Positions 52,865 through 63,167 of a stretch of DNA of 64,000 nucleotides are shown in pieces. Source of the DNA: Salinilacihabitans rarus (GTDB taxonomy: Archaea > Halobacteriota > Halobacteria > Halobacteriales > Natrialbaceae); assembly GCF_024296665.1 (NCBI RefSeq), contig NZ_CP100762.1, positions 2,914,001-2,978,000 of the forward strand, given 5' to 3'. The number at the start of each line of letters is the position of its first letter. Position 1 is the first letter of the stretch. The notes beneath the pieces are model-generated. The model searched no databases, was not told the DNA's origin, and saw only the letters and a list, made by a program, of their open reading frames with translations. A program made the position numbers and the translations under genes.

Positions 52865-53095
52865 TTAGTCCATCGCGATGTACGTCTTCGTGTCGGTCAC
52901 GCCGTCGAGGCTCTGCACGTCGGTGGAAGCGGTGTGGAGCACGTCGTACACCTCGGGGACGTCGGCCTCGGCGATGATGTCGAAGTTCCCGGCGACGATG
53001 TGGGCGTCCGAGACGGCTTCGAGGTTCCGGATGTCAGCGAGCAGTCCCTCCGACTTGCCCGCGGCCGTCTTCACCATGATGAACGCGTGGACCAT
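52865..53095 (-). CDS. stand-alone Lrp/AsnC RAM (ligand-binding) domain protein, copy 1
   Basis: 76 aa: MVHAFIMVKTAAGKSEGLLADIRNLEAVSDAHIVAGNFDIIAEADVPEVYDVL in parts, ending GVTDTKTYIAMD. It is the amino-acid-sensing RAM fold of Lrp regulators with no DNA-binding domain. About 40% identical by eye to the copy downstream of trkA; both end TYIAMD. It is divergent from trkA across 103 nt. Confidence 0.9.
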   Translation of the reverse strand: MVHAFIMVKTAAGKSEGLLADIRNLEAVSDAHIVAGNFDIIAEADVPEVYDVLHTASTDVQSLDGVTDTKTYIAMD

Positions 53096-53163
53096 CTGAC
53101 TCGGGGTGTGGTACTCTGTGACACGACTAAAGCCTTTCCTCGCGGGGGCGCCTCCGCCGGGGC

Positions 53164-53172
53164 AAACTTATT
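53164..53172 (+). promoter_or_regulatory. TATA-like box of trkA
   Basis: aaacttatt at 53164-53172 is 27-35 nt before the trkA ATG at 53199, so the transcript should be nearly leaderless. The divergent RAM gene begins at 53095, and its promoter must lie in the same 103-nt space. Confidence 0.5.
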
Positions 53173-53198
53173 CACGGGTGGCGGCGTACCTCCGGTCC

Positions 53199-53897
53199 AT
53201 GCGGTTTGTCATCATTGGTGCCGGTCGGGTCGGCCTGCGGACCGCGCGCGTGTTGCGCGAGGAGGGCCACGAGGTGACGCTGCTCGAACGCGACGAGGTG
53301 ACGGCGCGGCGGGCCCGCGATCAGGGGTTCGAGGTCGTTCGCGGCGACGGCGCGCGGGAGTCGCTACTGGAGGCGGCGGGGATCGAGGCGGCCGACGCCG
53401 TCGGCGCGCTGACCGGCGACCTGAACGTCAACTTCGCGGCGTGCATGATCGCCAAACACTACGACTGCCGGACGGTCATGCGCATCGACGAGGACTACCG
53501 CGAGGAGATCTACCGCAAGTACGCCGACGAGGTCGACGAGGTGATCTACCCCGAACGGCTGGGCGCGATGGGCGCGAAGAACGCCTTACTCGGGGGCACC
53601 ATCCGTGCCATCGCCGACGTCGCCCCGCACCTCCAGGTGGTCGAGTTGACGATCACCGAGGACGCGCCCGTCCGCGGCTACACGATGGGCGAACTCGAAC
53701 TGCCCGCCGACACGACGATACTCGCGTTCGGCAAGCGCGACGGCGCCCTGCGGATCCCGACCGCCGACGAGTCCCTCGAGGCGGGCGACCGGCTGGTGGT
53801 GCTCGCGGACTTCGCGGTACTGAGCGACGTGCGACAGATTCTGGTCGGCGAGACGGCCGACCTCGCGGCGGCCAACGCGGGTTCCGGAGGTGTCTGA
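53199..53897 (+). CDS. trkA: potassium uptake regulatory protein TrkA
   Basis: 232 aa. Cytosolic RCK protein gating the TrkH channel with NAD(H) or ATP. RCK_N: MRFVIIGAGRVGLRTARVL (GxGxxG), VTLLERDEV, VVRGDGARESLLEAAGIEAADAVGALTGDLNVN in parts. RCK_C (about 140-220): LQVVELTITEDAPVRGYTMGEL, LVVLADFAVLSDV. It is followed after 2 nt by RAM copy 2 and faces RAM copy 1. A TrkH gene is at 61671. Confidence 0.93.
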   Translation: MRFVIIGAGRVGLRTARVLREEGHEVTLLERDEVTARRARDQGFEVVRGDGARESLLEAAGIEAADAVGALTGDLNVNFAACMIAKHYDCRTVMRIDEDYREEIYRKYADEVDEVIYPERLGAMGAKNALLGGTIRAIADVAPHLQVVELTITEDAPVRGYTMGELELPADTTILAFGKRDGALRIPTADESLEAGDRLVVLADFAVLSDVRQILVGETADLAAANAGSGGV

Positions 53898-53899
53898 AC

Positions 53900-54130
53900 G
53901 TGGTCACGGCGTTCGTCATGGTGAAAGCGAACACGGGCGAGGCGGATCGGCTCCGGGAGAGCATCGAGGGGATCGACGGCGTCGAGTCGGTCCACATCGT
54001 CGCGGGCGACGTCGACCTCATCGCGAAGGCGCGCGTCGACGCCCCGGCCGCGGTCAAGGAGATCGCGGCGAACCGGATTCAGGGCATCCGCGGCGTCGAG
54101 GACACGCAGACGTACATCGCGATGGACTGA
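53900..54130 (+). CDS. stand-alone Lrp/AsnC RAM domain protein, copy 2, coupled to trkA
   Basis: 76 aa from a GTG at 53900, two bases after the trkA stop: MVTAFVMVKANTGEADRLRESIEGIDGVESVHIVAGDVDLIAKA in parts, ending GVEDTQTYIAMD. RAM domains form dimers or octamers and bind amino acids. With no HTH it cannot act as a DNA-binding regulator alone. Its tight coupling to trkA suggests a role in potassium transport control; this is inference. Confidence 0.9.
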   Translation: MVTAFVMVKANTGEADRLRESIEGIDGVESVHIVAGDVDLIAKARVDAPAAVKEIAANRIQGIRGVEDTQTYIAMD

Positions 54131-57073: not shown

Positions 57074-58081
57074 TCAGGTCGCGACGACCGAGAGCGCGCC
57101 GACGCTCTCGAGGACCAGCCAGACGACAAACCCGCCGTACAGCGCCAGCAGCCCCCACGCCTCGCGCCCGGAGAGCAGCATCTCCGTCCGCGCGACGGCG
57201 AAGAAGGCGGTCGTCGCGAGGACCAGGTAGCCCATCATCGGCACGACGTGCGCGAACGTGACCGTCAGCGACCCCGCGACGAGGACGCCGACGGGGACGG
57301 CCACGAGGAGGTCGAACGTGTTGCTCCCGAGGACGTTCGCCACGGAGACCGTCGGCCGGCCGGCCCGCGCGGCCGCGATGCTGACGAACGCGTCCGGGAG
57401 GCTCGACCCCGCGGCGACGACGGTCATCCCCCAGAGGAACGTCGGGGTGCCGAACGCCTCGCCGAGGCCGATCGCCGCGCGGACGAGCGCCTCGACGCCG
57501 ACGACGATCAGCGCCAGTCCGAGGCCGAACGCGAGCCACGTCCGGACGACGTCGACGTCGTCGCTCGACGCGGGTCCGTGATCCGCGGTGTCGAGGTACT
57601 GGGCGAACAGGTAGATGCCGTACAGCGCGAGCGGGAACAGCGCGAGCGACCGCGTGACGGTCCCCGGGAGCCCGCTCCCGTCGGCCGGGTTGTAGATGAC
57701 CGCCATCGAGAACGTCAACAGCAGCGCCGCGACCGCGAGCATGTAGAACAGCGCCTCCTTGTAGACCAACTCGCGCGTCGTGGGGAGCGCCCCGCCGATC
57801 AGCGCCGCGGCGCTCGGGATCACCAGCAGGTTGAACACCGCCGATCCGACGACCGCGCCCACCCCGAGTTCGAACTCCTGGTGGAGCAGCGTCGCCAGCA
57901 ACACGCTCGAGAGTTCGGGCGCGCTCGACCCCACGGCGGCGACGATCGCCCCCTGGACGACGACCGGCAACCCGTAGGCGGCCGCGAGGTCGTCGGCGGC
58001 CCCTTCCAGCGACTGGCTCCCCGTCCAGACGACGACCGTGCCGACCGCCGCGAGCAACAGCGACGTCGCGACCGCGAACAT
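57074..58081 (-). CDS. CaCA-family sodium/calcium exchanger
   Basis: 335 aa with about ten membrane helices in two inverted halves. Both alpha repeats are present: AIVAAVGSSAPELSSVLLATLL (alpha-1, near residue 45) and MTVVAAGSSLPDAFVSIAAARAG (alpha-2, near residue 225), each with the conserved G-S-S-x-P-[ED] ion site and followed by GSAVFNLLVIP or GSNTFDLLVAVP. It exchanges Ca2+ (or another cation) for Na+ or H+ at the membrane. Confidence 0.92.
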   Translation of the reverse strand: MFAVATSLLLAAVGTVVVWTGSQSLEGAADDLAAAYGLPVVVQGAIVAAVGSSAPELSSVLLATLLHQEFELGVGAVVGSAVFNLLVIPSAAALIGGALPTTRELVYKEALFYMLAVAALLLTFSMAVIYNPADGSGLPGTVTRSLALFPLALYGIYLFAQYLDTADHGPASSDDVDVVRTWLAFGLGLALIVVGVEALVRAAIGLGEAFGTPTFLWGMTVVAAGSSLPDAFVSIAAARAGRPTVSVANVLGSNTFDLLVAVPVGVLVAGSLTVTFAHVVPMMGYLVLATTAFFAVARTEMLLSGREAWGLLALYGGFVVWLVLESVGALSVVAT

Positions 58082-61446: not shown

Positions 61447-61670
61447 GTGCGGAGAGTGTCGCCGGCGAGGTAACTAGCTGTCGTTCGGCGCCACCGTCGA
61501 CGGCGTCCGGGCCCGGTCGCGCCCGCCCGACGGGGCTCCGGTCGAGATTTGTAGCTAGGTCTTGAAGTGGCGAGTCGACATCGGTCGAAATCCATGAACG
61601 TGCCGTCGCGTTCGCTCCCGACTCGCGAGCGAGTCGACGCCCGCCGGGCGCGCGTGTGGGGTCGATTCCC

Positions 61671-63167
61671 GTGAGGATCCGCGTCGACTGGCGAGTCAGC
61701 TGTAGCCTCGTCGGCACCATCCTGAAGTGGCTGGCGGTGCCGCTGGCGTTCCCGCTTGCGCTCGCCGTCTACGACGGCGTCGACGTGGTCCCGTTCGTCG
61801 CGACGATCCTCGTGACCCTGTCGCTCGGCGCCGGCCTCGAACGCCTCACCGACGACCGCGACCTCGGGGCCCGCGAGGCGTTCCTCATGGTGTCGCTCGC
61901 GTGGTTCTCGATCGCGGCGGTCGGGGCGGTTCCGTTCGTCCTCGCGGGGAACGGGTCGCTCGCGCACCCGCTCGACGCCCTCTTCGAGAGCATGAGCGGG
62001 GTGACGACGACGGGGGCGACGGCGATAACCGACTTCGACGCCCACTCGCGGGCGATCCTGCTGTGGCGACAGCTCATCCAGTGGCTCGGCGGGCTCGGCA
62101 TCCTCGTGCTCGCGACGGCCATCCTCTCGCGGCTCGGCGTCGCCGGCGCGCAACTGATGGAGACGGAGACGCAGACGCGGGACGTGACGAAGCTCACGCC
62201 GCGGATCTCCGAAACCGCGAGGCTCCTCTGGAGCCTCTACATCGGCATCACCGTCGCGCAGATGGGGCTGCTCTACGTGCTTCACCTGCTCGGGCTGGCG
62301 CCGAACATGACGCTCTACGACGCGGTCGCCCACCCGCTGACGACCGTCTCCACGAGCGGCTTCTCCCCGCGACCGGAGAGCCTCGCGGCGTTCTCCCCGG
62401 CGGTCCAGTGGGTCACGACCGCGTTCATGGCGGTCGGGGCGACCAACTTCATCCTCATCTACCTCGTCTTGCAGGGGCGGTTCGAACGGCTCTACCGGAG
62501 CGACGAGTTCCGCTTCTACGTCGGCGTCCTGCTCGGGTTCGGCGCCGCCGTCGCCGCCCTGCTCGCCGTCGAGGGGCCGTCGCTCGGCGGCGTCGAGGCG
62601 ACCGTCCGCCACGCGCTGTTTCAGGTGGTCTCCATCACGACGACGACGGGGTACGCCAGCGTCGACTTCAACGACTGGTCGGCGTCCGCGAAGAACCTGC
62701 TGTTCGTCTGTATGTTCATCGGCGGGATGGCCGGCAGCACGACGTGTTCGATCAAGGCGCTGCGCTGGCTCGTGGTGCTCAAGGCGTTCCGGCGGGACCT
62801 CTTCGTCGCCGGCCACCCGGCCGCCGTCCGCCCGGTTCGGCTGAGCGGCGAGGTCGTCGACGAGGGGACGATCAGGGACATCTACGCGTACACGCTGGTC
62901 AGCCTCGTGTTCTTCATGGCGGGGACGGTGTTCGTCGTCCTCGACACGGCCCGGTACGGCCTGACGATCGGCGAGTTCGACGCGATGAGCGCGGCGGCGG
63001 CGACCTTCTTCAACGTCGGCCCGGGGTTCGGCGTCGTCGGCCCCTTCGAGACCTACGAGGTGTTCCCGCCGGCGACGAAGGTCGCGATGATCCTGCTGAT
63101 GTGGACCGGCCGCATCGAGATCATCCCGGTGCTGGTGTTGCTGACGCCGGCCTACTGGCGCCGGTGA
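61671..63167 (+). CDS. trkH: TrkH-family potassium transporter
   Basis: 498 aa from the GTG at 61671 (VRIRVDWRVSCSLVGTILKWLAVPL); another GTG at 61656 is possible. About ten to twelve membrane helices with four P-loop selectivity segments: SGVTTTGATAI, TTVSTSGFSPRP, SITTTTGYASVDF and FFNVGPGFGVVGP. WLGGLGILVLATAILSRLG is a standard TrkH block. The partner regulator gene trkA is 7.5 kb upstream, not adjacent. The transporter likely imports K+, the main compatible ion in haloarchaea. Confidence 0.94.
   Translation: MRIRVDWRVSCSLVGTILKWLAVPLAFPLALAVYDGVDVVPFVATILVTLSLGAGLERLTDDRDLGAREAFLMVSLAWFSIAAVGAVPFVLAGNGSLAHPLDALFESMSGVTTTGATAITDFDAHSRAILLWRQLIQWLGGLGILVLATAILSRLGVAGAQLMETETQTRDVTKLTPRISETARLLWSLYIGITVAQMGLLYVLHLLGLAPNMTLYDAVAHPLTTVSTSGFSPRPESLAAFSPAVQWVTTAFMAVGATNFILIYLVLQGRFERLYRSDEFRFYVGVLLGFGAAVAALLAVEGPSLGGVEATVRHALFQVVSITTTTGYASVDFNDWSASAKNLLFVCMFIGGMAGSTTCSIKALRWLVVLKAFRRDLFVAGHPAAVRPVRLSGEVVDEGTIRDIYAYTLVSLVFFMAGTVFVVLDTARYGLTIGEFDAMSAAAATFFNVGPGFGVVGPFETYEVFPPATKVAMILLMWTGRIEIIPVLVLLTPAYWRR

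Follow-up and report, generated by a model that had tools for sequence, protein, structure and literature searches.

Two stand-alone RAM proteins flank a TrkA-like RCK protein in a conserved haloarchaeal gene cassette

Among described proteins, DM1 of Pyrococcus horikoshii (2e1a), STS042 (2zbc) and TTHA0845 (2djw) resemble the two small proteins studied here: all are about 75 aa long, consist of a RAM domain only and share the demi-FFRP fold (beta-alpha-beta-beta-alpha-beta), which we assign to our two as well. A 2010 review called the role of stand-alone RAM proteins unclear and described hetero-octamers that DM1-like proteins form in vitro with a full-length relative (PMC2995911). RAM-only Lrp proteins have also been recorded in haloarchaea (PMC8229911, PMC4236453), and Haloferax mediterranei has two of them, WP_004059678.1 and WP_004059676.1, for which the available part of PMC8229911 proposes neither a link to trkA nor a function. 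The same papers describe Trh2-type haloarchaeal Lrp, in which TrkA_C (RCK_C) is fused to an Lrp-family protein (PMC4236453, PMC8229911). Trh2 is one fused DNA-binding protein, whereas the locus described here encodes separate, HTH-less proteins and a full RCK protein. On the transport side, KtrA/KtrC, TM1088B and the TrkA of TrkH-TrkA carry, like the TrkA of our locus, RCK_N and RCK_C with a glycine-rich nucleotide motif; unlike the KtrA/TrkA systems, our trkA has no adjoining ktrB or trkH. Searches of the open-access literature gave no description of a RAM-trkA-RAM cassette; the domains are known and the arrangement is new.

The cassette (Table 1) lies in a 64,000-nucleotide stretch (the window) of the Salinilacihabitans rarus genome, a single contig of 3.62 Mb; the relatives used for comparison are Halobacteria. 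An earlier note on this DNA had given the gene positions, the 76-aa size of both RAM proteins and spacings of 2 nt (trkA to RAM2) and 103 nt (divergent RAM1 and trkA), all of them correctly. A profile search of the genome placed PF01037 at seven sites and TrkA_N at 16, and TrkH in four genes (6 matched stretches).

Table 1. Features of the RAM1-trkA-RAM2 cassette, in window coordinates.
Feature	Position	Strand	Description
RAM1	52865-53095	-	ATG start, 76 aa, stand-alone RAM (Lrp/AsnC ligand-binding), divergent from trkA
Near-palindrome GTGTGGTACTCTGTGACAC	53106-53124		19 bp, lying between RAM1 TATA-like box and RAM1 start; probable operator
RAM1 TATA-like box CTTTAG	53127-53132	-	Position conserved in listed relatives
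trkA TATA-like box CTTATT	53168-53173	+	Predicted; conserved in listed relatives
TrkA	53199-53897	+	232 aa, single-RCK TrkA-like, RCK_N + RCK_C
RAM2	53900-54130	+	GTG start 2 nt past trkA stop, 76 aa, stand-alone RAM

PF01037 was the only family matched by RAM1 (39.3 bits) and by RAM2 (51.7 bits; cut-off 25), and neither protein matched any of the HTH families. This absence is not a start-site error, because in 38/38 relatives RAM2 is 76 aa long and RAM1 has a length of 76-77 aa, which upholds the claim that both lack a DNA-binding domain. With the C-terminal RAM domain of Lrp/AsnC proteins present and the N-terminal HTH domain absent, RAM1 and RAM2 are stand-alone RAM (demi-FFRP) proteins. 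They are 45% identical over 76 aa (E=2e-20), a slightly higher value than the "about 40%" estimated by eye in the earlier note. The TYIAMD end that had been singled out is indeed present in both, but it is family-typical rather than a special signature; E. coli Lrp has TYVVME at that position. Among solved structures, the best sequence matches to both come from stand-alone RAM proteins and from the RAM half of E. coli Lrp. An AlphaFold2 model of RAM1 (pLDDT 96) found its best PDB matches in PHS023, TTHA0845 and DM1 (2cvi, 2djw, 2e1a; TM-score 0.92-0.95), which gives RAM1 a predicted RAM fold of the DM1/TTHA0845 type, and from its sequence RAM2 is assigned the same fold.

The alignments of RAM1 and RAM2 hold candidate ligand residues in common: neither D39 nor T71 varies, and T69 is at least 90% conserved. 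At a numbering shift of 63 these residues appear to match D102, T132 and T134 of Sulfolobus Lrp. D102 of Sa-Lrp is required for the glutamine response (PMC3584215), and T132/T134 of Sulfolobus ST1022 are mutated in PDB entries, going by the entry titles. The counterpart of K126 at the same shift is not conserved in the RAM alignments. Two positions distinguish the paralogs, with V38 invariant in RAM2 and position 38 mostly aromatic in RAM1, and with E43 invariant in RAM1 and mostly K43 in RAM2. In a tree of 44 RAM domains (76 columns), RAM2 formed one clade with a support of 98/100; neither RAM1 nor the origin of the RAM1/RAM2 pair was resolved by that tree.

We then surveyed 116 Halobacteria genomes, each at least 90% complete, of which 91 have trkA, 91 RAM2 and 90 RAM1. 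trkA occurs with at least one RAM gene in 89 genomes (including G034, whose contig ends inside trkA), alone in three, and RAM without trkA in four (one of them weak); 20 have neither. The association is strong (Fisher p = 1e-15, shared ancestry not corrected for). Wherever trkA and RAM2 occur together (88/88 genomes), RAM2 is the next gene downstream. RAM1 is found within 600 nt upstream of trkA in 77/86 genomes (69 divergent, eight co-directional) and elsewhere in the other nine, up to 394 kb away; six genomes keep RAM1 although it lies 61-394 kb from trkA. A scan with TrkA returned 40 loci, and all 38 haloarchaeal ones contained RAM1, trkA and RAM2, with -4 to +5 nt between the trkA stop and the RAM2 start in 38/38; the two bacterial loci had neither RAM. 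The RAM-only pair of Haloferax mediterranei, whose accessions leave one number between them, is presumably the same RAM pair. The linkage that the earlier note had predicted was therefore found very strongly, and the RAM1-trkA-RAM2 trio very probably is one functional haloarchaeal cassette. Its extension to "salt-in archaea" in general was too broad, as the module is absent from the 20 genomes with neither gene. These belong to two families, and one of them comes from a genus in which all six other members sampled carry the module.

Such linkage could in principle be passive, the synteny of a slowly rearranging region with no functional meaning, and the genes around the cassette (tmk, E1-alpha, DUF5813 and others) are indeed fairly conserved. 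Yet all 38 loci retain the trio, whereas its neighbours drop to 32, 28 and 24 (partly owing to short contigs). In four loci (L009, L018, L019 and L021) the trio alone is inverted as a block amid conserved neighbours. In all ten module-less genomes that we examined, the trio alone is missing, cleanly and as a whole block with its flanks intact, and DUF5813 abuts the E1-alpha/51204/tmk genes. Because it is inverted and lost as a block, RAM1-trkA-RAM2 behaves as a unit, and passive synteny is largely refuted and very improbable. Mirror-tree partial correlations (TrkA-RAM1 0.58/0.38, TrkA-RAM2 0.65/0.32) were no higher than that of TrkA with DUF5813 (0.64/0.47), and this test does not separate the RAM partners from the neighbouring control gene.

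The association of RAM with trkA is strong and not obligate, because RAM pairs without trkA and trkA without RAM genes exist. Three genomes (G014, G044 and G073) have kept trkA and lack both RAMs. In G001 and G007 (g14), trkA alone is gone from between the divergent RAM genes, and in G099 an MgtE gene with CBS domains (L089:2461-4324) fills the usual place of trkA between RAM2 and RAM1. These RAM pairs favour a different arrangement, in which RAM1 and RAM2 form a hetero-ring sensor of their own whose output is not TrkA, trkA shares their locus because it responds to the same condition as they do, and other cation genes can take the place of trkA. The retention of RAM1 far from trkA in the six genomes mentioned above fits this arrangement, and the invariant E43 of RAM1 could suit a heterodimer with the mostly K43 of RAM2. 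However, RAM2 never occurs apart from trkA where both exist, the three trkA genomes do without either RAM, and RAM2 diverges once trkA is gone. In G001 and G007, RAM2 scores 77-80 bits vs 118-130 in other f2 genomes, on a long branch (1.13 vs at most 0.37), while the RAM1 score stays in its normal range. That only RAM2 diverges without trkA points to a constraint on RAM2 from TrkA, which would have held RAM2 in shape. On balance we regard an independent RAM1-RAM2 sensor as distinctly unlikely.

A further alternative concerns transcription. The stretch that separates RAM1 from its TATA-like box contains a near-palindrome of the pattern GTGTGRTAC-N7-CAC. Its GTGTGRTAC part, with at most one mismatch, occurs in 29/36 intergenic regions vs a mean of 0.38 in shuffles. 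The element accompanies RAM1 where the gene is unlinked from trkA (L091, L093, L095) and also where RAM1 is on the same strand as trkA (L098, L103). The pattern GTGTGGTAC-N7-CAC is a candidate protein-binding site, and probably the operator of RAM1. Judged by the haloarchaeal consensus, the TATA-like boxes would be promoter elements. trkA-RAM2 has a TATA-like box of its own, and RAM1 thus seems to be controlled separately, with an element dedicated to it. Neither RAM is the obvious binder of the near-palindrome, because both lack an HTH. They could still act in transcription by joining full-length Lrp proteins as hetero-octamers and tuning their DNA binding, with trkA as a co-regulated target or operon mate. 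A precedent exists in the FL11-DM1 hetero-octamer of Pyrococcus, formed in vitro (PMC2995911), and RAM1 and RAM2 resemble DM1 in sequence, RAM1 also in predicted fold. The conserved promoter element and the five further PF01037 loci of the genome are also consistent with such a role. But no regulon is visible, as the full pattern has exactly one match in the 3.62-Mb genome, and a role in transcription leaves unexplained both the position of RAM2 behind trkA in every genome with the two genes and the loss of the trio as a unit. We therefore consider it rather unlikely.

The cassette TrkA itself matches PF02254 (TrkA_N, E=8.8e-27) and PF02080 (TrkA_C, E=1.5e-12), the RCK_N and RCK_C domains of TrkA/KtrA-type gating proteins. 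Its PDB relatives are TrkA (4j9u), TM1088B (3l4b), KtrA/KtrC and MthK, and octameric proteins are among its relatives in the PDB. Linkage to TrkH/KtrB is usual for TrkA/KtrA-type RCK genes and not required. None of the 38 loci has a TrkH gene in the 6 kb on either side of the cassette; several loci are shorter than 6 kb on one side. The window does contain a TrkH gene at 61656-63167 (+), ~7.8 kb from the cassette trkA and with no adjoining trkA. We rejected it as the missing partner, since its relatives elsewhere usually lie far away or on another contig. TrkH also occurs in genomes without the cassette. At 838-840 kb of the same genome, a separate trkA adjoins trkH with no PF01037 place nearby, and the TrkA encoded there is a distant paralog of the cassette TrkA (59 bits vs about 420). 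From the TrkA family, K+ uptake is a plausible output of the cassette; the lack of a linked TrkH, the TrkH genes of cassette-free genomes and this separate, RAM-less trkA-trkH pair speak against a simple K+-uptake reading. The earlier reading, in which the RAM proteins act on TrkA to gate K+ uptake, is supported in part, by the conserved linkage.

At about 1.869 Mb, the same genome encodes a second TrkA that is a close paralog of the cassette TrkA (L101:294-3187). A gene for a sodium/calcium exchanger is situated ~1.3 kb from it, and the window has a further exchanger gene at 57074-58081.

Our best explanation for the whole, to which we give a probability of about 0.45, is that RAM2, perhaps with RAM1, is the ligand-sensing partner of the cassette TrkA. 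RAM2 and a KtrA-like single-RCK TrkA would be co-translated, and a RAM ring or dimer would bind a metabolite, probably an amino acid. The ligand-bound RAM would adjust the RCK ring of TrkA, which would then gate a cation transporter whose gene lies at another locus. RAM1, expressed from a divergent promoter of its own that a dedicated operator controls, would most likely mix with RAM2 as hetero-oligomers and so set the sensitivity. In this scheme we infer the co-translation, the physical contact, the ligand and the transporter, and a RAM-TrkA partnership is plausible. A more specific version, in which RAM1 and RAM2 together build amino-acid-binding rings that dock on octameric TrkA and adjust cation transport to amino-acid status, seems to us unlikely, and the idea that amino acids gate K+ uptake by way of RAM-TrkA rings is speculative.

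Unlike the demi-FFRP genes that we examined outside Halobacteria, the haloarchaeal RAM paralogs flank trkA. In the loci examined from other Halobacteriota, no stand-alone RAM gene had a TrkA gene closer than about 3 kb. At five of these loci (L107, L111, L115, L116 and L117), the RAM gene overlaps or abuts a gene for an ACT + DUF5612 protein, which resembles AF1403 (solved as 1y7p). At three others, a putative topoisomerase VI subunit B gene lies directly downstream of the stand-alone RAM gene (L121:3068-5136, L123:3375-5326, L128:2938-4973), and the RAM protein encoded there is possibly a metabolite sensor tied to the topoisomerase. Genome G021 has a stand-alone RAM gene immediately upstream of a gene for a DHH/DHHA1 phosphoesterase (L090:2932-4300). 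Because of the ACT + DUF5612 and topoisomerase VI subunit B neighbours, it may be a general habit of stand-alone RAM genes to pair with a gene that does not encode a transcription factor, and TrkA would be the haloarchaeal case.

A RAM protein encoded right behind a partner that is not DNA-related, and kept and lost together with it, is a concrete candidate for a non-transcriptional role of the stand-alone RAM domain. Haloarchaea live on molar K+, and the cassette may be what ties their cation balance to metabolite status. Many haloarchaeal "Lrp/AsnC regulators" probably bind no DNA themselves. If it is true that a docked RAM-RCK sensor is at work, a RAM domain of the Lrp type would regulate a transport system directly and not through DNA binding.
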